A stretch of DNA of 64,000 nt from Chitinophagales bacterium (GTDB lineage Bacteria; Bacteroidota; Bacteroidia; Chitinophagales; Chitinophagaceae): NCBI GenBank assembly GCA_025353485.1, contig JANXQO010000024.1, forward strand, positions 1 through 64,000, given 5' to 3'. Positions 15,192 to 40,010 of the stretch are shown in pieces. Numbering within the stretch: position 1 is the first letter of the stretch; each line of letters begins with the position of its first letter. Made by a program: the position numbers and the translations under genes. The notes under the pieces were generated by a model. That model was not told the origin of the DNA and searched no databases. It was given only the letters and a program-made list of their open reading frames with translations.

Positions 15192-17530
15192 AAAGTATGG
15201 TAAGCCTCTTTAATAGTTTGAGATTTTGTTTTTTTCGGATATAAGCTAATTAAAACTTTTTCAGGAGTTATCGGTGCAGAAAACTTTATATCTGCTGAAG
15301 GCTTAAACGCTTTTATTGCATTACGTATGGCAAAAAAAGCACCAATCCCATACATCAAAGGCGGCTCCCCTACAGCCTTTGAGCGGAAGATGGCGAGATT
15401 ATCTTTTTTAGTTTTTAAGAAATGAACTTTTATTTCTTCCGGCACAGAATATATATCCGGCACTTTATAAGTTGATAATGCATTGGATATTAATTTTCCT
15501 TCTTTATCATAAATAATTTCTTCCATTGTCATCCATCCCATGCCCTGCACAATACCGCCTTCAATTTGACCGAGATCAACAACAGGATTCATAGTTGTGC
15601 CGAAATCATGCACCACTTTCACTCCATCAAAAGTATAAATACCACGCAGGCAATCAAGGGTAACAACTGTAATTGCAGTTCCATAAACATGATATGCAAA
15701 TGGATGGCCTTTTTCAATTGTTGGATTAAAATGAACCTGTGGTGGTGCATAATGTGAATGCTCAGATAAATTAACTCTCTTTATGTATGCAGTTGCAATA
15801 AGATTCTCCCAGGTAAGTTCAGTTTTTTTATTGCCGATATGTACAAGCCCTTCTGAAATTATCATCTTATCGCAGGGCTGTTTTAAAATTTCTTCAGCTA
15901 TAGGTTTCAATCTTTCAAATAAATTTAAACAGGCCATCTGCACAGCTTTGCCATTAAGATCAGCCGTGGCGCTTGCTGCAGAGGGAGAAGTGTTTGCAAT
16001 GCGAAACGTATTAGTAGTATGAATTTTTATTTTTGATAAAGGCAATGAAAAAATGGTTGCTGCAACCTGAGCCATTTTTGTATTTACTCCCTGTCCCATT
16101 TCTACAGCGCCGGTACTTATACCAACACTTCCATCAGTGTACAAATGCACCAATGCCCTTGCCTGGTTCATTACAGTTTTTGTGAAAGAAATCCCAAAGC
16201 ATATCGGCATGAAAGAAATTCCTTTTTTATACAATTGATTTTCATCATTGAATTTTTTTACCAGCTTCCTTATTTTTTTTATTGCATAAATATCTTCTGC
16301 TTCTTCCCAACATTTTTTTGCTTCACTTTCTGCTTTTTGCCCGTATGGAAATTCATCATTTGTCTGCAATAAATTTTTCTTTTGAATTTCAGATGCATCA
16401 ATACCTAATTCTTCTGCTGCTTTTGCAATTGCTGATTCAATAACAAACATTCCCTGCGGCCCTCCAAAACCTCTGAAAGCTGTATTGGGAGGCAGGTTGG
16501 TTCTGCAGCAGTAGGCAGTTGCTTTTACATTCGGAACAAAGTATGAATTGGTGCAATGAAATAAAGTTCTTTCTAAAACAGCGGGAGAAAGATCTGCGGC
16601 GGCGCCTGCATTCTGGTAAAAGATTGCTTCATAAGCAATGATCTTTAAATTTTTATCCAGCCCTATTTTAAAATCAGAAGAATATGGATTTCTCTTTCCT
16701 GTCATCCGCATATCTTCCATCCTGTGCAAACAATATTTTACAGGTTTTTTTAAATGATAAGTTGCCAGTGCACATAAAATTGCCCACACAGTAGCCTGAT
16801 CTTCTTTACCGCCAAAGCCGCCGCCAAGGCGGGTTACATCAACTTCAAGGCGATGCATGGGGATTTTTAATACTGCAGCCATGTGCCTTTGAACGGCTGT
16901 TGGTCCCTGCGTGGAAGAATAAACTTTTATACAATTATTTTCCTGCGGAATGGTATAAGCTCCCTGGGTTTCAATATACAAATGTTCCTGTCCGTTTGTT
17001 TCCGCAATGCCTTCAAAAATATGAGCACATTTTTTCCATGCTTTATCAATATTTCCTAAAGAAAATGTTCGTGGTGGAATGATGAGTTCATTTTTTTCTT
17101 TGGCTTCTCTCGGGTCAGTAATTATTGGTAATGGTTCAATTTCTATTGTAATATTTTTTACTGCAGCCTGTGCTATCTCATTTGTTTCTGCAACAACAAA
17201 TGCAACAGGCATTCCATTAAAATGAACTTCGTCTTCTGCAAGCAATGGCTCATCAGGCACAATGCCACCGATCTGATTATCACCGGGAATATCTTTGTAT
17301 GTAAATATTCTAACAACTCCGGGCATTTTTTCAGCAGCAGAAATGTCAAGGCTAATAATTTTTCCATGCGCAACCGGCGAGCCAAATGCAGCGCCAAACA
17401 AGGTTCCCTGCAGCAAAGGAATGTCATCCAGGTAAATGGATTCGCCACGAACGTGTGTTATAGAATCAATGTTGCCCATATCCCCTAATGGGGGATTTAG
17501 TTGTATGATATTTTTATTAGGATTGTTCAT
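15188..17530 (-). CDS. xdhB: Xanthine dehydrogenase, molybdopterin-binding subunit
   Basis: 780 residues, the size of bacterial XdhB. Key stretches are THVRGESIYLDDIP at the N-terminus, RLGGGFGGKEDQ, RMEDMRMTGKR, TAFRGFGGPQGM, GAVEMGQGVNTKMAQ, SPSAASATADLNGKAVQ and KAVGEPPLMYGIG. The last contains the catalytic Glu near residue 720. With XdhA it oxidises hypoxanthine and xanthine to urate. Residues 11-19 (LNPPLGDMG) derive from a palindromic repeat, so initiation at Met18 (17479) is an alternative. xdhA lies 373 nt upstream across a repeat array; xdhC overlaps downstream. Confidence 0.96.
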   Translation of the reverse strand: MNNPNKNIIQLNPPLGDMGNIDSITHVRGESIYLDDIPLLQGTLFGAAFGSPVAHGKIISLDISAAEKMPGVVRIFTYKDIPGDNQIGGIVPDEPLLAEDEVHFNGMPVAFVVAETNEIAQAAVKNITIEIEPLPIITDPREAKEKNELIIPPRTFSLGNIDKAWKKCAHIFEGIAETNGQEHLYIETQGAYTIPQENNCIKVYSSTQGPTAVQRHMAAVLKIPMHRLEVDVTRLGGGFGGKEDQATVWAILCALATYHLKKPVKYCLHRMEDMRMTGKRNPYSSDFKIGLDKNLKIIAYEAIFYQNAGAAADLSPAVLERTLFHCTNSYFVPNVKATAYCCRTNLPPNTAFRGFGGPQGMFVIESAIAKAAEELGIDASEIQKKNLLQTNDEFPYGQKAESEAKKCWEEAEDIYAIKKIRKLVKKFNDENQLYKKGISFMPICFGISFTKTVMNQARALVHLYTDGSVGISTGAVEMGQGVNTKMAQVAATIFSLPLSKIKIHTTNTFRIANTSPSAASATADLNGKAVQMACLNLFERLKPIAEEILKQPCDKMIISEGLVHIGNKKTELTWENLIATAYIKRVNLSEHSHYAPPQVHFNPTIEKGHPFAYHVYGTAITVVTLDCLRGIYTFDGVKVVHDFGTTMNPVVDLGQIEGGIVQGMGWMTMEEIIYDKEGKLISNALSTYKVPDIYSVPEEIKVHFLKTKKDNLAIFRSKAVGEPPLMYGIGAFFAIRNAIKAFKPSADIKFSAPITPEKVLISLYPKKTKSQTIKEAYHTL
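17475..17500. repeat. Family A palindrome in the first codons of xdhB
   Basis: The plus strand reads CCCATATCCCCTAATG then GGGGATTTAG. It shares the CCnTATCCCCTAA core with the element before parA (2813-2833) and GGGGATTTAG with family A at 60738. It encodes XdhB residues 11-19. Confidence 0.7.
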
Positions 17531-17535
17531 TATTA

Positions 17536-17934
17536 ATATTTCAAATCTAAGTTCTCCCTTTAGGGAGACAGAGGGTTTTCGGCCTCACCCACTTATCCCT
17601 CTCCTTCAGAGAGAGGGACGGTACTTCAATACAAATCCAAACATTTTATCTTCCATATCATCTTTAAATATCTATCAACAAGCCTGTTTCTATTTTCAAT
17701 TTATTTGAAATATTTCAAATCTAAGTTCCCCCTTAGGGAGGCAGAGGGTTTTCAGCCTCACCCTCTTATCCCTCTCCAATAGAGAGGGACGGTACTTCAA
17801 TACAAATCCAAATAAAAATTCTTCCACATCATCTATAAATATTTATCATCAAACTTATCCTCTTTTCGGGCTATGGTAAATATTTCAAATCTAAGTTCTC
17901 CCTTTAGGGAGACAGAGGGTTAAAAAGACAGAGG
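17536..17934. repeat. Three-copy direct repeat array between xdhA and xdhB
   Basis: Copies start at 17536, 17710 and 17880, giving periods of 174 and 170 nt. Each begins ATATTTCAAATCTAAGTTC, continues with a CTCCCTTTAGGGAG-type palindrome and ACAGAGGG. The first two then have CCTCACCC and a second palindrome (17597-17617; 17770-17788) followed by GACGGTACTTCAATACAAAT. The third copy is truncated and runs into the 3' end of xdhA, supplying its stop. Confidence 0.9.
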
Positions 17935-34340: not shown

Positions 34341-35768
34341 TTATTTTAATGCAGCACCCTGCTCAATCCAGCAACGAATAATATCACGTTCTTCAAGCGT
34401 CATATTGGTTTTATTATTCTGCGGCATTGTTTTAGTAATTACAACACGCTGCATAATTTTATCTTTTAGTTTAACCAGGTTATCAGGTGTATCGTAAGTT
34501 ACACCATTAGGCGGAGCAGTGATAACATCATCTGCAGGTTTTACAGAATGACAACTGATACATCTTTTTTGAACGATTGTATTTACTTCTGTAAAACTAA
34601 TATTGGCTTTACATTCACCTGGTTTTGCCGGAGCAGAAACATACGCCGTTGCCAATAAAATCAATACTGAAACAGGCATTACCCAAATGCTGTATTTGCC
34701 CTGTTCACGCAGGTTTAGCCAATGTTTTATTCCTGCGCTTCCTAAAGATATTGCTGCTAAAATTATCCATGGATATTTAAAACCAAATGTGCCTGGAAAA
34801 TGATTGCTCACCATTACAAATAATACAGGGAGAGTTAAATAATTATTGTGAAGCGAACGCAAGCCTGCATGTTTACCAAGTTCAGGATTTAACGGCTTGC
34901 CTTCTTTTGCCGCTTTCACCATTGCTTTTTGTGAAGGAATAATTACAAAGAAAACATTGGCAACCATTATTGATCCAAGCATGGCACCAAAATGAATGTA
35001 CGCAGCCCGGGCACTAAATACATAACAATAGAACCATGCAAACCCGATGATGATTATAACGCCAACAAGTGTAAACCAAATCCCTTTTTTTACAAGAGCA
35101 GTTTTACAAAGAATATCATACAAAAGCCAGGCAACAACAAATGATACGATGCCTGTAACAATTGCTGCAGCAGAACTCATTGCGAAAACATTGGTATCAA
35201 TTAAAAATCCTTTTGCATTAAAATAATATACAATGAACAAAAGGCTAAAACCGGATAGCCACGTAAAATATGCTTCGTACTTAAACCAGTGAAGGTGCTT
35301 TGGGATTGACTTTGGGGCAGTTTTGTATTTCTCCAGGTAATAAAATCCGCCCCCATGAATTGCCCATAGATTTCCGGCAAGTTCATCACGAACATTTTCC
35401 GTTCTGTTCAATGCGTTCTCTAAAAAAACAAAATAAAAAGAGGCACCTATCCATGCAATTCCGAAAGTGATATGCATTACTCTTACAACAATATTCAGCC
35501 ATTCCATCATGTGGCCTTCCAACGGAGTACCTTTTAGAATAAGGTAAGTAAATACAAGGATTGTTATTATTACAAGAACAATTGCTGCGTAAATAAAATT
35601 ATGCGAACCCAGTAATTTGTTTTTATAGTTATCAGATTCCGTATCGTTTTTTATGCCATTATCGTCTTCACCCGAGAGTGTGCGAAAGTGATATGTCATC
35701 CATATCAGCATGATTAAAATAAGTACCAGTATGCCGTAGATTATAAAGTGGAACATATATGCGCTCAA
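34341..35768 (-). CDS. puuD: Membrane urate hydroxylase PuuD with cytochrome c domain
   Basis: 475 residues, about nine transmembrane helices and a periplasmic c-type heme domain. The first half carries the Urate_ox_N signature: RVMHITFGIAWIGASFYFVF (96-115), LWAIHGGGFYYLEKY and HWFKYEAYFTWLSGFSLL. The C-terminal heme site is CISCH at 403-407, with Met448 (TMPQNN) a likely ligand. PuuD oxidises urate to 5-hydroxyisourate and delivers electrons to the respiratory chain, so unlike soluble uricase it makes no hydrogen peroxide. It is divergent from allantoinase (54 nt between genes) and close to the other ureide genes. Confidence 0.92.
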   Translation of the reverse strand: MSAYMFHFIIYGILVLILIMLIWMTYHFRTLSGEDDNGIKNDTESDNYKNKLLGSHNFIYAAIVLVIITILVFTYLILKGTPLEGHMMEWLNIVVRVMHITFGIAWIGASFYFVFLENALNRTENVRDELAGNLWAIHGGGFYYLEKYKTAPKSIPKHLHWFKYEAYFTWLSGFSLLFIVYYFNAKGFLIDTNVFAMSSAAAIVTGIVSFVVAWLLYDILCKTALVKKGIWFTLVGVIIIIGFAWFYCYVFSARAAYIHFGAMLGSIMVANVFFVIIPSQKAMVKAAKEGKPLNPELGKHAGLRSLHNNYLTLPVLFVMVSNHFPGTFGFKYPWIILAAISLGSAGIKHWLNLREQGKYSIWVMPVSVLILLATAYVSAPAKPGECKANISFTEVNTIVQKRCISCHSVKPADDVITAPPNGVTYDTPDNLVKLKDKIMQRVVITKTMPQNNKTNMTLEERDIIRCWIEQGAALK

Positions 35769-35822
35769 ATTAAAATTTAGTTTTCTATTTTTAGTGATTC
35801 ATTTCAGATTAATATTTTTTAA

Positions 35823-37154
35823 GTGTTTGATATTGCCATAAAAAGTACAAGAATAGTAACTCCCGAAGGAGAAAAAAAAGGAGTAATAATTATTAAAGGC
35901 GGGCTAATAATTGATGTTACTGAATCATTGAACAATACTGATGAAAGATTAATTGATGTACTCGATAAAGTAGTAATGCCGGGAGTTATTGATCCTCATG
36001 TTCATATCAACGAGCCGGGAAGAACAGAGTGGGAAGGCTTTGATACAGCCACAAAATCAACACTGGCAGGAGGTATTACCACTTTGGTGGATATGCCTTT
36101 GAACGCATCACCGGTTACCACAACGCTAAAAGCATTTGAAGAAAAATTAACTGCGGCAAAAAAACATCTCCATACCAACTGTGGTTTTTGGGGAGGTGTT
36201 ATCCCCGGAAATGAAAACGAAATTGAACCGTTAATTGATAAAGGTGTTCTGGGTTTCAAAGCATTTTTAACGCATAGCGGCATTGATGAATTTCCAAATG
36301 TAACAGAACATGATCTTAGAAAAGTAATGCCAATAATTGCAAAACATAATTTGCCTCTGCTGGTGCATTGTGAATTGTCTTTCCCCCTCTCCCTGGGAGA
36401 GGGGACGGGGGTGAGGTCATATCAAAATTATTTAAACTCACGTCCACGTAAATGGGAAGATGATGCTATTGCATTGATGATTCGTTTGTGTGAAGAATAT
36501 AATTGCCGGACTCACATTGTCCATTTATCATCTTCCAATTCAATTGAACAAATTGAAAAAGCAAAACAAAAAAGATTGCCCCTCACTGTAGAAACCGCGC
36601 AACACTATTTATATTTTACTGCAGAAGAAATAAAAGATGGACAAACACAGTTTAAATGTGCACCTCCCATACGTGAAAAAGAAAATAATGAAAAACTGTG
36701 GCGGGCATTAAAAGATGGAATAATAGATTTTGTTGCAACAGATCATTCGCCTGCAACTCCCGGCCTTAAAGAACTGCAGAGCGGTGATTTTATGAAAGCA
36801 TGGGGAGGGATTGCATCGCTGCAATTTGCATTACCTGTGTTATGGACTGCCGCAAAAGAAAAAATGTGCTCTTTAAATGAGATTGCAAAGTGGCTTTCAG
36901 AAAATCCCGCAAAACTCATTGGCAAACAAAATTCAAAAGGTAAAATTGCAAAAGGATATGATGCAGACTTAATTGTTTTTGATGAAAAAAAAACTTTTAC
37001 AGTTACTGAAGATATAATTCAGCACAAGCATAAAATAACTCCTTATTTAAATGAAAAATTATTTGGTGTTGTAGAGCAGACTTATTTGTCAGGAGAAAAA
37101 ATTTGTGATAAAGAAGCTATGGTATTGAATAAAGGCAAAGTGATATTAGAATAG
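35823..37154 (+). CDS. allB: Allantoinase
   Basis: 443 residues, GTG start. Metal ligands of the amidohydrolase fold are visible: H59 and H61 (DPHVH), K146 (GFKAF, carboxylated Lys), H182, H234 (HIVHLSSS) and D307 (TDHSP). It opens allantoin to allantoate. Residues about 186-198 (SFPLSLGEGTGVR), just after the H182 ligand, are encoded by a palindromic repeat and look like an in-frame insertion before YQNYLNSRPRKWEDDA. Context (allantoicase next, puuD divergent) supports allantoinase over dihydropyrimidinase. Confidence 0.93.
   Translation: MFDIAIKSTRIVTPEGEKKGVIIIKGGLIIDVTESLNNTDERLIDVLDKVVMPGVIDPHVHINEPGRTEWEGFDTATKSTLAGGITTLVDMPLNASPVTTTLKAFEEKLTAAKKHLHTNCGFWGGVIPGNENEIEPLIDKGVLGFKAFLTHSGIDEFPNVTEHDLRKVMPIIAKHNLPLLVHCELSFPLSLGEGTGVRSYQNYLNSRPRKWEDDAIALMIRLCEEYNCRTHIVHLSSSNSIEQIEKAKQKRLPLTVETAQHYLYFTAEEIKDGQTQFKCAPPIREKENNEKLWRALKDGIIDFVATDHSPATPGLKELQSGDFMKAWGGIASLQFALPVLWTAAKEKMCSLNEIAKWLSENPAKLIGKQNSKGKIAKGYDADLIVFDEKKTFTVTEDIIQHKHKITPYLNEKLFGVVEQTYLSGEKICDKEAMVLNKGKVILE
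36384..36420. repeat. Family B palindromic repeat inside allantoinase
   Basis: A perfect palindrome with 10-nt arms CCCCTCTCCC/GGGAGAGGGG around one central base (36384-36404) is followed by ACGGGGGTGAGGTCAT. The same tail type (GGGTTGAGGTTAT) follows the palindrome at 38865-38898. The insertion keeps the allB frame. Confidence 0.85.
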
Positions 37155-37229
37155 TCAATGCCATTGCCCGAAAATAAAGTGGTATAAAAAGAATTTGTTT
37201 AATTCGCTAAAATTCGTGTTATAAAATTT

Positions 37230-37237
37230 TACATTTG
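37230..37237 (+). promoter_or_regulatory. Putative -7 box for allantoicase
   Basis: TACATTTG fits the TAnnTTTG consensus 22 nt before the alc ATG. No -33 element at normal spacing was seen. Confidence 0.4.
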
Positions 37238-37259
37238 ATATAATATTATCCCACTAACT

Positions 37260-38279
37260 ATGGATACAGTACAACCCGCATTTACAAAACTTACAGACCT
37301 TGCTGCCGAAAATTTAGGCGGCAAAGCACTTTTGTGCAGTGATGATTTTTTTGCTGAAAAAGAAAATTTACTTAAGCCCGGAAGGGGAATTTTTATCACT
37401 GATAAATATACTGACAGGGGCAAATGGATGGATGGCTGGGAATCAAGGCGCAAAAGAATACCGGGGCATGACTGGTGTATTATACAACTGGCAACTTCAG
37501 GAAAAATTATTGGGGTAGATATTGATACAAATCATTTTCTTGGCAATCACCCTCCACATGCGTCTATTGATGCATGTTACATGGAACCGGGCTCAACTAT
37601 TGATTTTGAAAAAGCCTCGTGGATAGAAATTCTTCCTAAGTCTTCATTGAAAGCCGGTTCACAAAATTTTTATGCAATCAAAGATATTGAAGCAGAGGGA
37701 GGCAAAAATATTTATACACATATCAGGTTAAACATTTATCCTGATGGTGGTGTGGCAAGAGTGAAAGTTTATGGAGAAGTTTTTAAAGATTGGAAACTTG
37801 ATAACCGGGAAGAAATAATTGATCTTGCCGCCGCAGTTAACGGAGGTAAATCTATTCTGTGTAACGATATGTTTTTTTCTCACATGGATAATCTTATAAT
37901 GCCCGGCAGGGGGATTAATATGGGAGATGGCTGGGAAACAAAACGTAACCGCACTCCCAATAATCGCGATTGGGTAATTGTAAGGTTGGCGCATAAAGGG
38001 ATCATTGAAAAAATAGTAATTGATACCTGTCATTTTAAAGGAAATTATCCTGATAGTTGTACGCTGGAAGGTTGTACTATTTCACCAAAGGATGAAATAA
38101 AATTACAGACCTCAGAAATAAAATGGACTTCTATTTTACCACAAACTAAATTAACCGCCGACAATGAACATCATTTTGAAAATGAAAACAAAGATGAATT
38201 TACGCATGTTCGTTTGTCCATTTTTCCTGATGGAGGAATAAGCAGGATGAGATTGTGGGGAAGGGTACCAAGTAAATAA
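37260..38279 (+). CDS. alc: Allantoicase
   Basis: 339 residues composed of two related halves, the family's internal duplication. LTDLAAENLGGKALLCSDDFF in the first half matches IDLAAAVNGGKSILCNDMFF in the second. MDGWESRRKR matches GDGWETKRNR, and DIDTNHFLGNHPPHAS matches VIDTCHFKGNYPDSC. It hydrolyses allantoate to ureidoglycolate and urea in the cytoplasm. It lies downstream of allB and upstream of uraD, all rightward. Its stop codon lies in a heptanucleotide repeat (38275-38300). Length and motifs are normal. Confidence 0.95.
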   Translation: MDTVQPAFTKLTDLAAENLGGKALLCSDDFFAEKENLLKPGRGIFITDKYTDRGKWMDGWESRRKRIPGHDWCIIQLATSGKIIGVDIDTNHFLGNHPPHASIDACYMEPGSTIDFEKASWIEILPKSSLKAGSQNFYAIKDIEAEGGKNIYTHIRLNIYPDGGVARVKVYGEVFKDWKLDNREEIIDLAAAVNGGKSILCNDMFFSHMDNLIMPGRGINMGDGWETKRNRTPNNRDWVIVRLAHKGIIEKIVIDTCHFKGNYPDSCTLEGCTISPKDEIKLQTSEIKWTSILPQTKLTADNEHHFENENKDEFTHVRLSIFPDGGISRMRLWGRVPSK

Positions 38280-38300
38280 GTAATAAGTAATAAGTAATAG
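38275..38300. repeat. Heptanucleotide repeat at the alc stop codon
   Basis: Three units of AATAAGT plus a partial unit cover the TAA stop of alc. They are followed by ACTACAAACT-type short repeats up to uraD. The unit is close to the TAACAAG unit in xdhC. Confidence 0.8.
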
Positions 38301-38345
38301 GGTAGATGAACTACAAACTATAAACTACAAACTTTAAACTGTACT

Positions 38346-38855
38346 ATGACTATAGCAGAATTTGATCATTTACCAACCGAAAAGAAAAAAGAATTACTGC
38401 TGCAATGTTGCGGTTCGTCAGCATGGGTTAATAAAATGCTCACTATTTTTCCTGTAGAAGATCTTGTTGAATTATTGGAGGCTGCTGAAGAAAAATGGTA
38501 TGAATGCAATGAAGAAGATTGGAAAGAGGCGGCGAAGAATCATCCTAAAATCGGTGATTTAAATTCACTAAAAGAAAAATACAATGCAACCAAAGCATGG
38601 GCAGAAGCTGAGCAGGCCGGAGTTTCCACTGCATCGGATACAATTTTAAAAGAACTGGAAGAAAACAATAAACGCTACGAAGAAAAATTTGGATATATTT
38701 TTATTGTTTGTGCTACCGGCAAAACCGCAGAAGAAATGCTTGATATTTTAAAGGCACGTTTAAATAATACTTCAGAAGAAGAAATTAAAATTGCAGTCGG
38801 GGAACAAAATAAAATTACCAAACTAAGGTTAGAAAAAGTATTTTTAAACAATTAA
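38346..38855 (+). CDS. uraD: OHCU decarboxylase
   Basis: 169 residues, the usual length. The N-terminal LLLQCCGSSAWVNKMLTIFP and the central WKEAAKNHPKIGDL are the family signature; the latter holds the catalytic His. The C-terminal FGYIFIVCATGKTAEEML block is also conserved. UraD converts 2-oxo-4-hydroxy-4-carboxy-5-ureidoimidazoline to (S)-allantoin. It follows alc and precedes uraH, so the two enzymes acting after PuuD are adjacent, with a palindromic repeat between them. Confidence 0.94.
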   Translation: MTIAEFDHLPTEKKKELLLQCCGSSAWVNKMLTIFPVEDLVELLEAAEEKWYECNEEDWKEAAKNHPKIGDLNSLKEKYNATKAWAEAEQAGVSTASDTILKELEENNKRYEEKFGYIFIVCATGKTAEEMLDILKARLNNTSEEEIKIAVGEQNKITKLRLEKVFLNN

Positions 38856-38864
38856 ATTTAAACT

Positions 38865-38908
38865 CTGTTCCCTTCTCTGCTTGTGGAGAAAGGAACAGGG
38901 TTGAGGTT
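38865..38908. repeat. Family B repeat between uraD and uraH
   Basis: An imperfect palindrome with arms CTGTTCCCTTCTC and GAGAAAGGAACAG (one base different) is followed by GGTTGAGGTT, directly before the uraH ATG. It provides the purine-rich sequence where a ribosome-binding site would be. Confidence 0.75.
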
Positions 38909-39247
38909 ATGAGCAGGATAACAACACATATTCTTGATACTACAAAAGGGAAGCCTGCCGAAGGTGTTACCATTATATTATATGGCGGCGAAAATGATGA
39001 ATGGACTGAGCTTGTAAGAGGAATAACAAATGCTGACGGAAGAATAGCAGACCTTCTGAACAAAGATGACCTGCTTCACTTTGGTATTTATAAAATGCGT
39101 TTTGAAACCAAGGATTATTTTGACAAAATCCGGGTAAAAACTTTTTATCCTTATGTGGAGATTATTTTTGAAATAGAATCTAACCAGCATTACCACATTC
39201 CCCTGTTACTAAATCCATTTGGATATTCTACTTACAGGGGTTCCTGA
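38909..39247 (+). CDS. uraH: 5-hydroxyisourate hydrolase
   Basis: 112 residues, transthyretin-like fold. It starts MSRITTHILDTTKGKPAEGV, the conserved HVLDxxxGxPA-type N-terminus. The middle has DGRIADLL, and the C-terminus ends GYSTYRGS, the signature tetrapeptide of active HIU hydrolases (as opposed to transthyretin). It hydrolyses 5-hydroxyisourate, the PuuD product, to OHCU for UraD. It begins 53 nt after uraD across a repeat. No signal peptide is seen, so it is cytoplasmic. Confidence 0.95.
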   Translation: MSRITTHILDTTKGKPAEGVTIILYGGENDEWTELVRGITNADGRIADLLNKDDLLHFGIYKMRFETKDYFDKIRVKTFYPYVEIIFEIESNQHYHIPLLLNPFGYSTYRGS

Positions 39248-39249
39248 TT

Positions 39250-39936
39250 TTATTTTTTGCTTAAATAGATAAACACGTCAATCACATCTTCTTCTTTATT
39301 TAAGTTGATCTTGTTTTCCTTAATAAAACCCTCCACATTTTTCCGGGGAAAAAGATCTTTTAAATTATTTTTATTTACTATTAAAAAATTATTAGCTAAC
39401 CCGTTTATAGGGCTGATATAATATGTAGTTTCTTTTGAGAAAACCATTTCTTCATTTGGGGAAAGGTCGTAACTGTTAGCACCTAAAATTTTATCAACAG
39501 TTTGTATATTTTTTGCCTGCGAACTTGTTCCAAATGCGCCAACAGGTTTTCTTTCAATCAGCCTCATCTTATGCTTTATTGCGAGCCTTATCGTAGCAGA
39601 AGAAGCAGCCCATTCATAAAATCCATTATCATAAAAAAAAGTATCACTTCCTGCAGTAATTAATTTTATATCCTTTTGATTGCTGATTGCAACCGTATCA
39701 TTTTTTTCATTAATAAATCGCATTGTTTGATCAAAGTAATTAAGATTAATTCTCCCGAATGCTGTATCACCATTATTAAGATAGATCCTGGAGCTTACAA
39801 AGTTTGGGTACTTGTATCGTTCTTTACTTAAAAACGATTCCAGATCCGCATCTGTAACAGTAAATTTTTCCACATTTTGCGCAAAGGATGCAATACAAAT
39901 TGAAAATAAAAAAGAAAGGATACATAATTTTTTCAT
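39250..39936 (-). CDS. Secreted protein, tandem paralogue 1
   Basis: 228 residues from the ATG at 39936 (signal peptide MKKLCILSFLFSICIASFAQ). The mature region contains YPNFVSSRIYLNNGDTAFGR and NYFDQTMRFINEKNDTVAI, then FFYDNGFYEW and a C-terminal DVFIYLSKK. It is homologous along its whole length to the adjacent gene at 40011-40700. The family is not recognised; the pattern is typical of Bacteroidota periplasmic or outer-membrane-associated proteins. It is antisense to the purine genes and ends 2 nt from the uraH stop. Confidence 0.7.
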   Translation of the reverse strand: MKKLCILSFLFSICIASFAQNVEKFTVTDADLESFLSKERYKYPNFVSSRIYLNNGDTAFGRINLNYFDQTMRFINEKNDTVAISNQKDIKLITAGSDTFFYDNGFYEWAASSATIRLAIKHKMRLIERKPVGAFGTSSQAKNIQTVDKILGANSYDLSPNEEMVFSKETTYYISPINGLANNFLIVNKNNLKDLFPRKNVEGFIKENKINLNKEEDVIDVFIYLSKK

Positions 39937-40010
39937 AGCAGGAAAGATTAGGTCAACTGTATTTAATTGGCTAAATGTAATCAAACAAAAATATAATTTT
40001 TTACACCTTG

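Follow-up and report, generated by a model that had tools for sequence, protein, structure and literature searches.

The window, the whole 64,000 nt stretch of Chitinophagales DNA that was analysed, contains an allantoinase gene whose neighbours are allantoicase, an OHCU decarboxylase gene and hydroxyisourate hydrolase. A short palindrome lies in the allantoinase ORF close behind the codon of His182, a putative metal ligand, as expected for the amidohydrolase family (Table 1). The preliminary description of this locus had reported a perfect palindrome followed by a GGGGGTGAGG tail, in frame with the gene, and both features were confirmed. At the element the protein reads HCEL-SFPLSLGEGTGVR-SYQNYL, immediately after the strand that carries His182. 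The predicted structure (mean pLDDT 90, falling to 71–74 in the blocks with the loop) shows residues 185–199 as a coil between strand 179–184 and helix 200–205. The window contains a single instance of CCCCTCTCC-N(1-6)-GGAGAGGGG, against a mean of 0 over 100 shuffles, and likewise a single instance of GAGAGGGGACGGGGGTGAGG with up to three mismatches (shuffle mean 0). The hairpin does form in single-stranded DNA, with a stability that is not unusual for its composition (z −0.91). A search of window positions 35000–40000 for known RNA families gave two matches only, both far under the gathering scores.

Table 1. Features of the window that bear on the palindromic element
Feature	Position	Strand	Basis
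Allantoinase gene (TIGR03178), host of the palindrome	35823..37154	+	NCBIfam 549.7 bits, cut-off 357.85; ORF
Codon of His182	36366..36368	+	Nearly invariant in 40 aligned sequences
Loop, residues 185–199, variable in homologues, overwritten by the element	36375..36419	+	Homologue alignment, structure model
Solo palindromic element, covariance-model match	36375..36416	+	Model R2, 46.1 bits, E 3.4e-13 in the window; this copy (L023) is one of the 22 used to build the model
Perfect palindrome, two 10-nt arms, 1 nt between	36384..36404	+	Arms 36384–36393 and 36395–36404, 100% complementary
3′ tail of the element, ACGGGGGTGAGG	36405..36416	+	Terminal GGGTGAGG invariant across 22 aligned copies
Diverged element copy, just before the hydroxyisourate hydrolase start codon (38909)	38863..38906	+	R2, 13.5 bits, E 0.017
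Intergenic element copy	17583..17625	−	R2, 31.8 bits
Intergenic element copy	17756..17799	−	R2, 29.8 bits

Comparison with homologues changed the interpretation of how the element came to be there. The preliminary description had envisaged a mobile element inserted into an unbroken enzyme gene, and had predicted a gap of 12–14 residues in homologues. The stretch equivalent to window residues 172–216 (45 residues) is 43–46 residues long in 91 of 98 homologue rows and 47–66 residues in the other seven; among the 98 rows, eight are duplicates of a gene that both searches recovered, and L057 matches the gene of L054 a second time. Because the gap is absent, the element represents the replacement of a variable loop and not a net insertion; the element is indeed dispersed and in frame, and its gene is open and matches its family, but the word 'inserted' does not hold. 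The nearest relative, L058, has an 80% identical allantoinase with THNSQLTTGNSR at the loop, which is ~33 nt long there and ~36 nt in the window, and over 4326 nt this locus is identical to G544, a genome of the window's genus.

It had also been reckoned that the same residues in other genera would count against a mobile element, and this was found in part. Among 97 homologue loci, only L074 (Terrimonas pollutisoli) and L087 have in-gene copies that the covariance model detects (E ≤ 0.01), both at the same loop, and a decayed copy was visible by eye at the loop of L054 (genome G038). The reading phase of the element in L074 differs from that in the window, and the L074 copy therefore looks like a separate event. 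A quick allantoinase tree with many weak branches pairs the window with L058 (SH-aLRT 87) and requires three changes by parsimony, one of them forced by starred branches, and a single origin of the palindrome is compatible with it. The copy is probably a tolerated footprint with no role in catalysis.

The same loop has other fillings. In L058, L066, L068, L077, L078 and L090 it consists by eye of unrelated simple repeats (CTCACAA-, GCAACCA- and AAATCAAAAACC-type; ACTCACAACTCACAACTCACAACT in L058), as if any spare repeat could overwrite it. In L056 and L099 it has an extra ~21 residues that contain CCTGCCGGCAGG, another palindrome type.

Mapped across the 3.82-Mb draft genome, as the preliminary description had proposed, the repeat proved to belong to a dispersed family, with 38 exact matches to the pattern GAGANGGNNNNNGNGTGAGG and none to its reversed control. 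The covariance model R2, built from 22 copies with a structure supplied by hand, gave at least 148 genome matches at E ≤ 1, with some palindromes counted on both strands; 150 of 782 candidates were scored, so these counts are lower bounds. The second place named in the preliminary description, before the hydroxyisourate hydrolase gene, is a real though diverged copy. The two intergenic copies in the window each lie in the middle of a longer intergenic repeat, which is present there twice in similar form, ~170 nt apart (17520–17840), and the ORFs on either side resemble xanthine dehydrogenase subunits by eye. Contigs C58, C137, C9 and C123 of the window genome end within or close to palindrome copies, which may break assemblies.

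The loci fetched around the covariance matches held 103 non-overlapping copies of at least 8 bits. Of these copies, 32 lie in open frames of at least 200 aa, in 28 ORFs (33 rows, one a contig-end row without protein), among which leuS is counted twice, being split over two contigs; as the loci were chosen from covariance matches, the in-gene fraction is a biased estimate, and ORF starts are possibly wrong where copies lie near N-termini. In-gene copies occur in both orientations and in several frames. All 21 of the 28 ORFs that were scanned match at least one NCBIfam family, and the genes include leuS (two contigs), aroC, trpA, alaS, purL, purH, hisC, thyA, aspS, murC, ftsZ, gcvP and nuoM, with others. 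Measured roughly against the single best, distant PDB homologue, the net change at solo copies is about +10 residues in ThyA, +10 in PurH, +11 in PurL and +7 in HisC, and AspS shows a larger, mixed insertion at the place of the element.

The copies within genes are a subtype of their own. Among 52 copies of at least 20 bits, those of the GAGAGGGG type lie mostly in ORFs of at least 200 aa (15 inside, two outside) and those of the GAGAGGGA type mostly elsewhere (two inside, 31 outside), with one copy of neither type in each place (subtype versus location, Fisher P 7e-9). Selection against stop codons may be a contributor to this split. It is the GAGAGGGG subtype that also borders the nucleases of leuS and aroC.

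These nucleases came to light when the in-gene carriers were scanned, which revealed DUF559 domains within LeuS, within AroC and before TrpA, in each case adjoining palindromes. The LeuS of the window genome has a palindrome at residues 290–303, DUF559 at ~320–429 and a second palindrome at 437–450; AroC follows the same order (144–157, 179–272 and 281–291); in TrpA the domain stands in front, with one palindrome between. Eight DUF559 matches were found in the window genome at E ≤ 1e-10, five of them in frame inside or fused to leuS, aroC, trpA, an icmF-like gene and argB (leuS, aroC and icmF-like called by Pfam, argB by eye). In several host genes of relatives, too, the palindrome borders an in-frame DUF559 domain. 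In the family sample, the domain occurs in 41 of 98 genomes, and 46 of 94 matches, from 30 genomes, lie in open frames of at least 400 aa. The hosts, named for part of these, include leuS (two sites), aroC, metH (three places), metG and cinA-like, icmF-like, hsdR-like and peptidase-like genes; we read these names by eye from motifs in the flanks and used Pfam to check leuS, aroC, metG and icmF-like.

Across the phylum, a DUF559 match at E ≤ 1e-24 is present in 147 of 395 genomes. Of 30 loci taken from the best of these, 14 are in frames shorter than 230 aa, and the other 16 include by eye LeuS site 1 (three), MetH before the TVKGDVHDIGKN motif (five), and hsdR- and other restriction-like genes. 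L228 and L256, from two genera but in one clade of the nuclease tree, have DUF559 fused before an acetylglutamate-kinase-like gene (argB, by eye). Two LeuS frames, L237 (genome G013, 1315 aa) and L365 (G543, 1267 aa), carry two nuclease guests each, and in L365 the guests occupy both recurrent LeuS sites.

We quantified the association between palindrome and nuclease in 37 DUF559 loci, which contain 39 distinct full-length palindrome matches (E ≤ about 4e-4). Within ~200 nt of the domain lie 31 of the 39, and these mostly face outward (13 of 14 on its left, 14 of 17 on its right). Palindrome density is 2.09 per kb near the domain versus 0.087 per kb elsewhere in the same loci. At least one palindrome lies within 200 nt in 17 of the 37 loci, on both sides in 13; the other 20 have none of the exact type at that distance, although some have other types by eye. 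With loci labelled by hand from frame length and flanking motifs, a palindrome stands beside 16 of 26 in-gene or fused domains versus one of 11 free-standing ones (Fisher P 0.004). At the level of whole genomes, the exact palindrome occurs in 12 of 41 with DUF559 versus three of 57 without (Fisher P 0.0016), so that three of 15 exact-palindrome genomes lack a DUF559 match at E 1e-10. In genomes searched for both, nine of 44 exact-pattern palindromes lie 23–83 nt from a DUF559 domain.

DUF559 belongs to the Vsr/PD-(D/E)XK-type class, and the in-gene copies look intact. Residues E16, D44, E55 and D57 (L229 numbering), assumed to be catalytic, never vary among the 36 in-gene and 14 other copies, and H61 is kept in 36 of 36 and 13 of 14, respectively. 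The dN/dS ratio was 0.10–0.17 in the four of 11 DUF559 pairs with finite dS, the other seven being saturated in dS. No ATG is present in the 30 codons before the domain in 23 of 36 in-gene copies, whereas 13 of the 14 others have one. ATG, GTG or TTG can be found there in 27 of the 36 (nine lack all three), and separate translation is therefore possible. The best PADLOC match of the LeuS nuclease was 'homing endonuclease' (5.2e-7), with a restriction enzyme (2.7e-6) and DpdF (6.2e-6) nearly as good. Searches with it returned 23 plasmid records (E 1e-12) and two phage records (E 1e-8), all below 60% identity, and thus gave no lead to a phage or plasmid origin.

No intein (Hint/splicing) Pfam match was obtained at E 1e-5 in six host proteins, and no Rfam intron match at gathering score in 10 DUF559 loci, results that speak against an intron or intein. 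Because nothing able to splice was found, the guest apparently stays in the host protein. A C-terminal LeuS query matched a single place in the window genome (100% complete), so the LeuS of this organism presumably works with its guests inside.

The LeuS sites provide alleles in different states. At LeuS site 2, genome G544 of the window's genus is empty (ITEWVN-LNDGSK-RETN; its LeuS is 90% identical over residues 46–348 of the query), the window genome has a solo palindrome (ITEWVN-LPSPKGEGLGVR-RETN), and G535 and G543, both of the same genus, have the full palindrome-DUF559-palindrome arrangement. G543 has a second full element at LeuS site 1, in a 1267-aa frame. Compared with the empty allele of G544, the solo copy replaces 18 nt by 36 nt, with no target-site duplication in this one close pair.

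The LeuS loci read comprised 30 from 96 matching family genomes and a further 18 from the genus, with G045 in both samples and the window's solo copy in the family count. In the family, LeuS site 1 was empty in 19, full in six and long in two of 27 readable loci, and site 2 was empty in 22, solo in three (one of another palindrome type) and long in three of 28. In the genus, site 1 was empty in 11, full in one and long in one of 13 rows, and site 2 empty in 15 and full in two of 17 rows, G544 being counted twice. Outside these tallies, the DUF559 search yielded further full site 2 alleles in L237, L239, L241 and L255. An aroC match was present in 96 of 98 family genomes, and 24 of 30 AroC loci were readable: three full, 20 short and one with a repeat-like remnant (G038). 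As expected of a homing element, the nuclease gene is present at the LeuS and AroC sites of some genomes and absent there in relatives. The C-terminal part of LeuS in L191 (residues 545–553) carries a further, opposite-oriented palindrome remnant (PSPLERAGGEV).

A tree of the DUF559 domains unites AroC with both LeuS sites in a starred clade (96/98), and a starred clade also brings the two LeuS sites together (96/81). Most in-gene copies lie on one unstarred branch (81/86), with the HsdR, TrpA and ArgB copies outside it. Host-site labels change 16 times on the tree, against a least possible 14 and a shuffled mean of 26.5, and LeuS site 1 requires at least three changes by starred branches. Since 16 changes stand so close to the minimum of 14, moves from gene to gene do occur in this sample, though not often. 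The nucleases are kin site by site, as homing or descent would give, and the element appears to keep to its sites and sometimes to jump.

We favour, with a little more than even confidence, the interpretation that the palindrome in allantoinase represents a solo terminal repeat from palindrome-DUF559-palindrome mobile elements, which sit in frame, do not splice and spread by break repair. The sequences show the anatomy of these elements; their mobility would be driven by the nuclease. The nuclease would be translated together with the host protein and would make its cuts in or close to palindromes or permissive loops. Through error-prone repair of the break, or through gene conversion, either the complete element or a single palindrome might then be copied in, with the loss of a few bases at the site. 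Outcomes that keep the reading frame and fall in surface loops would be retained by selection, and solo copies would be footprints or captured ends. The site states are compatible with both orders, solo from full element or solo before full. The model lends itself to direct testing, since a single genus offers empty, solo and full alleles of the same site.

The alternative that survives best is that the palindromes spread without a dedicated enzyme, by ectopic gene conversion or by replication template switching at hairpins, and that DUF559 is a passenger using the palindromes as homology. Such a process would suit the 18-nt replacement without target duplication at LeuS site 2, the allantoinase loop replaced at about equal length, the simple repeats that fill this loop in other genomes (such as that of L058) and the palindrome genomes that lack a DUF559 match. 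It leaves unexplained, however, the invariant acidic residues and low dN/dS of the in-gene nucleases, and the bias of palindromes towards in-gene over free-standing domains, and we regard it as unlikely, perhaps a one-in-five matter. Rather less probable is a REP-type palindrome moved by a RAYT (Y1 type), with DUF559 merely landing in loops that hold palindromes. The window genome does have 10 Y1_Tnp matches, and intragenic REPs are known in other phyla, according to Di Nocera et al. (PMC3733652), but eight of the 10 Y1 loci, scanned over ~1.5 kb on each side (24.6 kb), contain no element copy (best 8.1 bits, E 0.39), and the palindrome borders DUF559 much more often than its background density in those loci would give.

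The solo and full states that share LeuS site 2 in one genus, and the remnant at the AroC site of G038, would also fit a third account, in which the allantoinase copy is what remains of a full palindrome-DUF559-palindrome element once present in the loop. No DUF559 was found at the allantoinase loop in the 98 homologue rows, and a full element has two palindromes where the window copy has one; this account seems to us improbable, more so than the preceding one. Ordinary divergence of a hypervariable loop that happened to become palindromic has a negligible chance of being correct, and is refuted by the shuffles, none of which yielded such a palindrome, and by the 38 genome matches against none for the control.

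Under our preferred interpretation, that of a nuclease-bearing element with palindromic ends, linkers encoded by the palindromes allow leucyl-tRNA synthetase or chorismate synthase to carry a seemingly intact nuclease. Confirmation would reveal one way in which essential proteins acquire new loops and domains from selfish DNA, an issue that Rickettsia palindromic elements had already brought up. It also carries a warning for annotation, as some 'DUF559 fusion proteins' may be hosts with a guest. Among the titles and beginnings of abstracts covered in the open-licence literature, we found no description of palindrome-bordered in-frame DUF559 elements.

Inteins bring a nuclease in frame into essential genes, sporadically and at recurrent sites, and the elements described here do likewise. 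In contrast to inteins, they have no splicing domain in the six proteins searched, are bordered by palindromes and are located in variable loops, and their host protein would need to function while it contains the guest. Splicing lets inteins and introns evade selection, whereas these elements seemingly evade it by being tolerated. Group I and group II introns differ in their intron RNA, of which there was none at the insert in the 10 loci compared with Rfam. REPIN/RAYT systems consist of palindrome pairs in opposite orientation, a feature shared by the present elements, but the palindrome here showed no association with a Y1 transposase in eight of 10 loci scanned with ~1.5 kb flanks. A DDE-type transposon or MITE would differ in its target-site duplication, which is absent here in the one close pair compared. 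The Vsr-like EDxHD homing endonucleases possibly belong to a related nuclease fold class, to judge from the family names (DUF559, MTES_1575); none is known to have palindromic borders.

Similar in behaviour are the Rickettsia palindromic elements, to which the preliminary description had likened the repeat. That likeness fits, for here too many short palindromes are dispersed through the genome, with in-frame copies in otherwise conserved genes; what it missed is the nuclease partner. Going by Di Nocera et al. 2013 (PMC3733652), Rickettsia palindromic elements and intragenic REPs share with our family the short palindromes in frame in protein genes and the copies elsewhere in the genome, and different REPs occupy about the same recB site in two Xanthomonas species. 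They differ from it in that our palindrome borders an in-frame nuclease gene, that local bases are replaced and that the sites recur across the phylum. In the same source, CGTC-tagged REPs have CGTC (or TGTC/CCTC) directly at one stem end; the bases between the stem and GGGTGAGG vary in our 22 aligned copies.

The WHO elements of yeast, as portrayed in their description (PMC7282813), likewise have a non-splicing homing-type nuclease, replace part of a host gene and spread to other loci. They lie downstream of FBA1 with transcription of their own, whereas the nuclease described here is inside the host frame, often with no nearby ATG (23 of 36). The same source distinguishes two self-splicing classes of homing element, inteins and intron-encoded nucleases, and, as a third class outside the host frame, WHO; on that account, palindrome-DUF559 elements would fit none of the three. 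We tentatively suggest, with slightly less than even confidence, that they constitute an additional class, distinct in structure, among homing-type selfish elements: a nuclease domain with outward palindromes, carried as a permanent, unspliced, in-frame guest of essential enzymes and made together with its host, which would be mostly faithful to its sites but would occasionally jump to unrelated genes, leaving behind solo palindromes that rewrite surface loops, that of the window's allantoinase among them, with the same loops reused phylum-wide.
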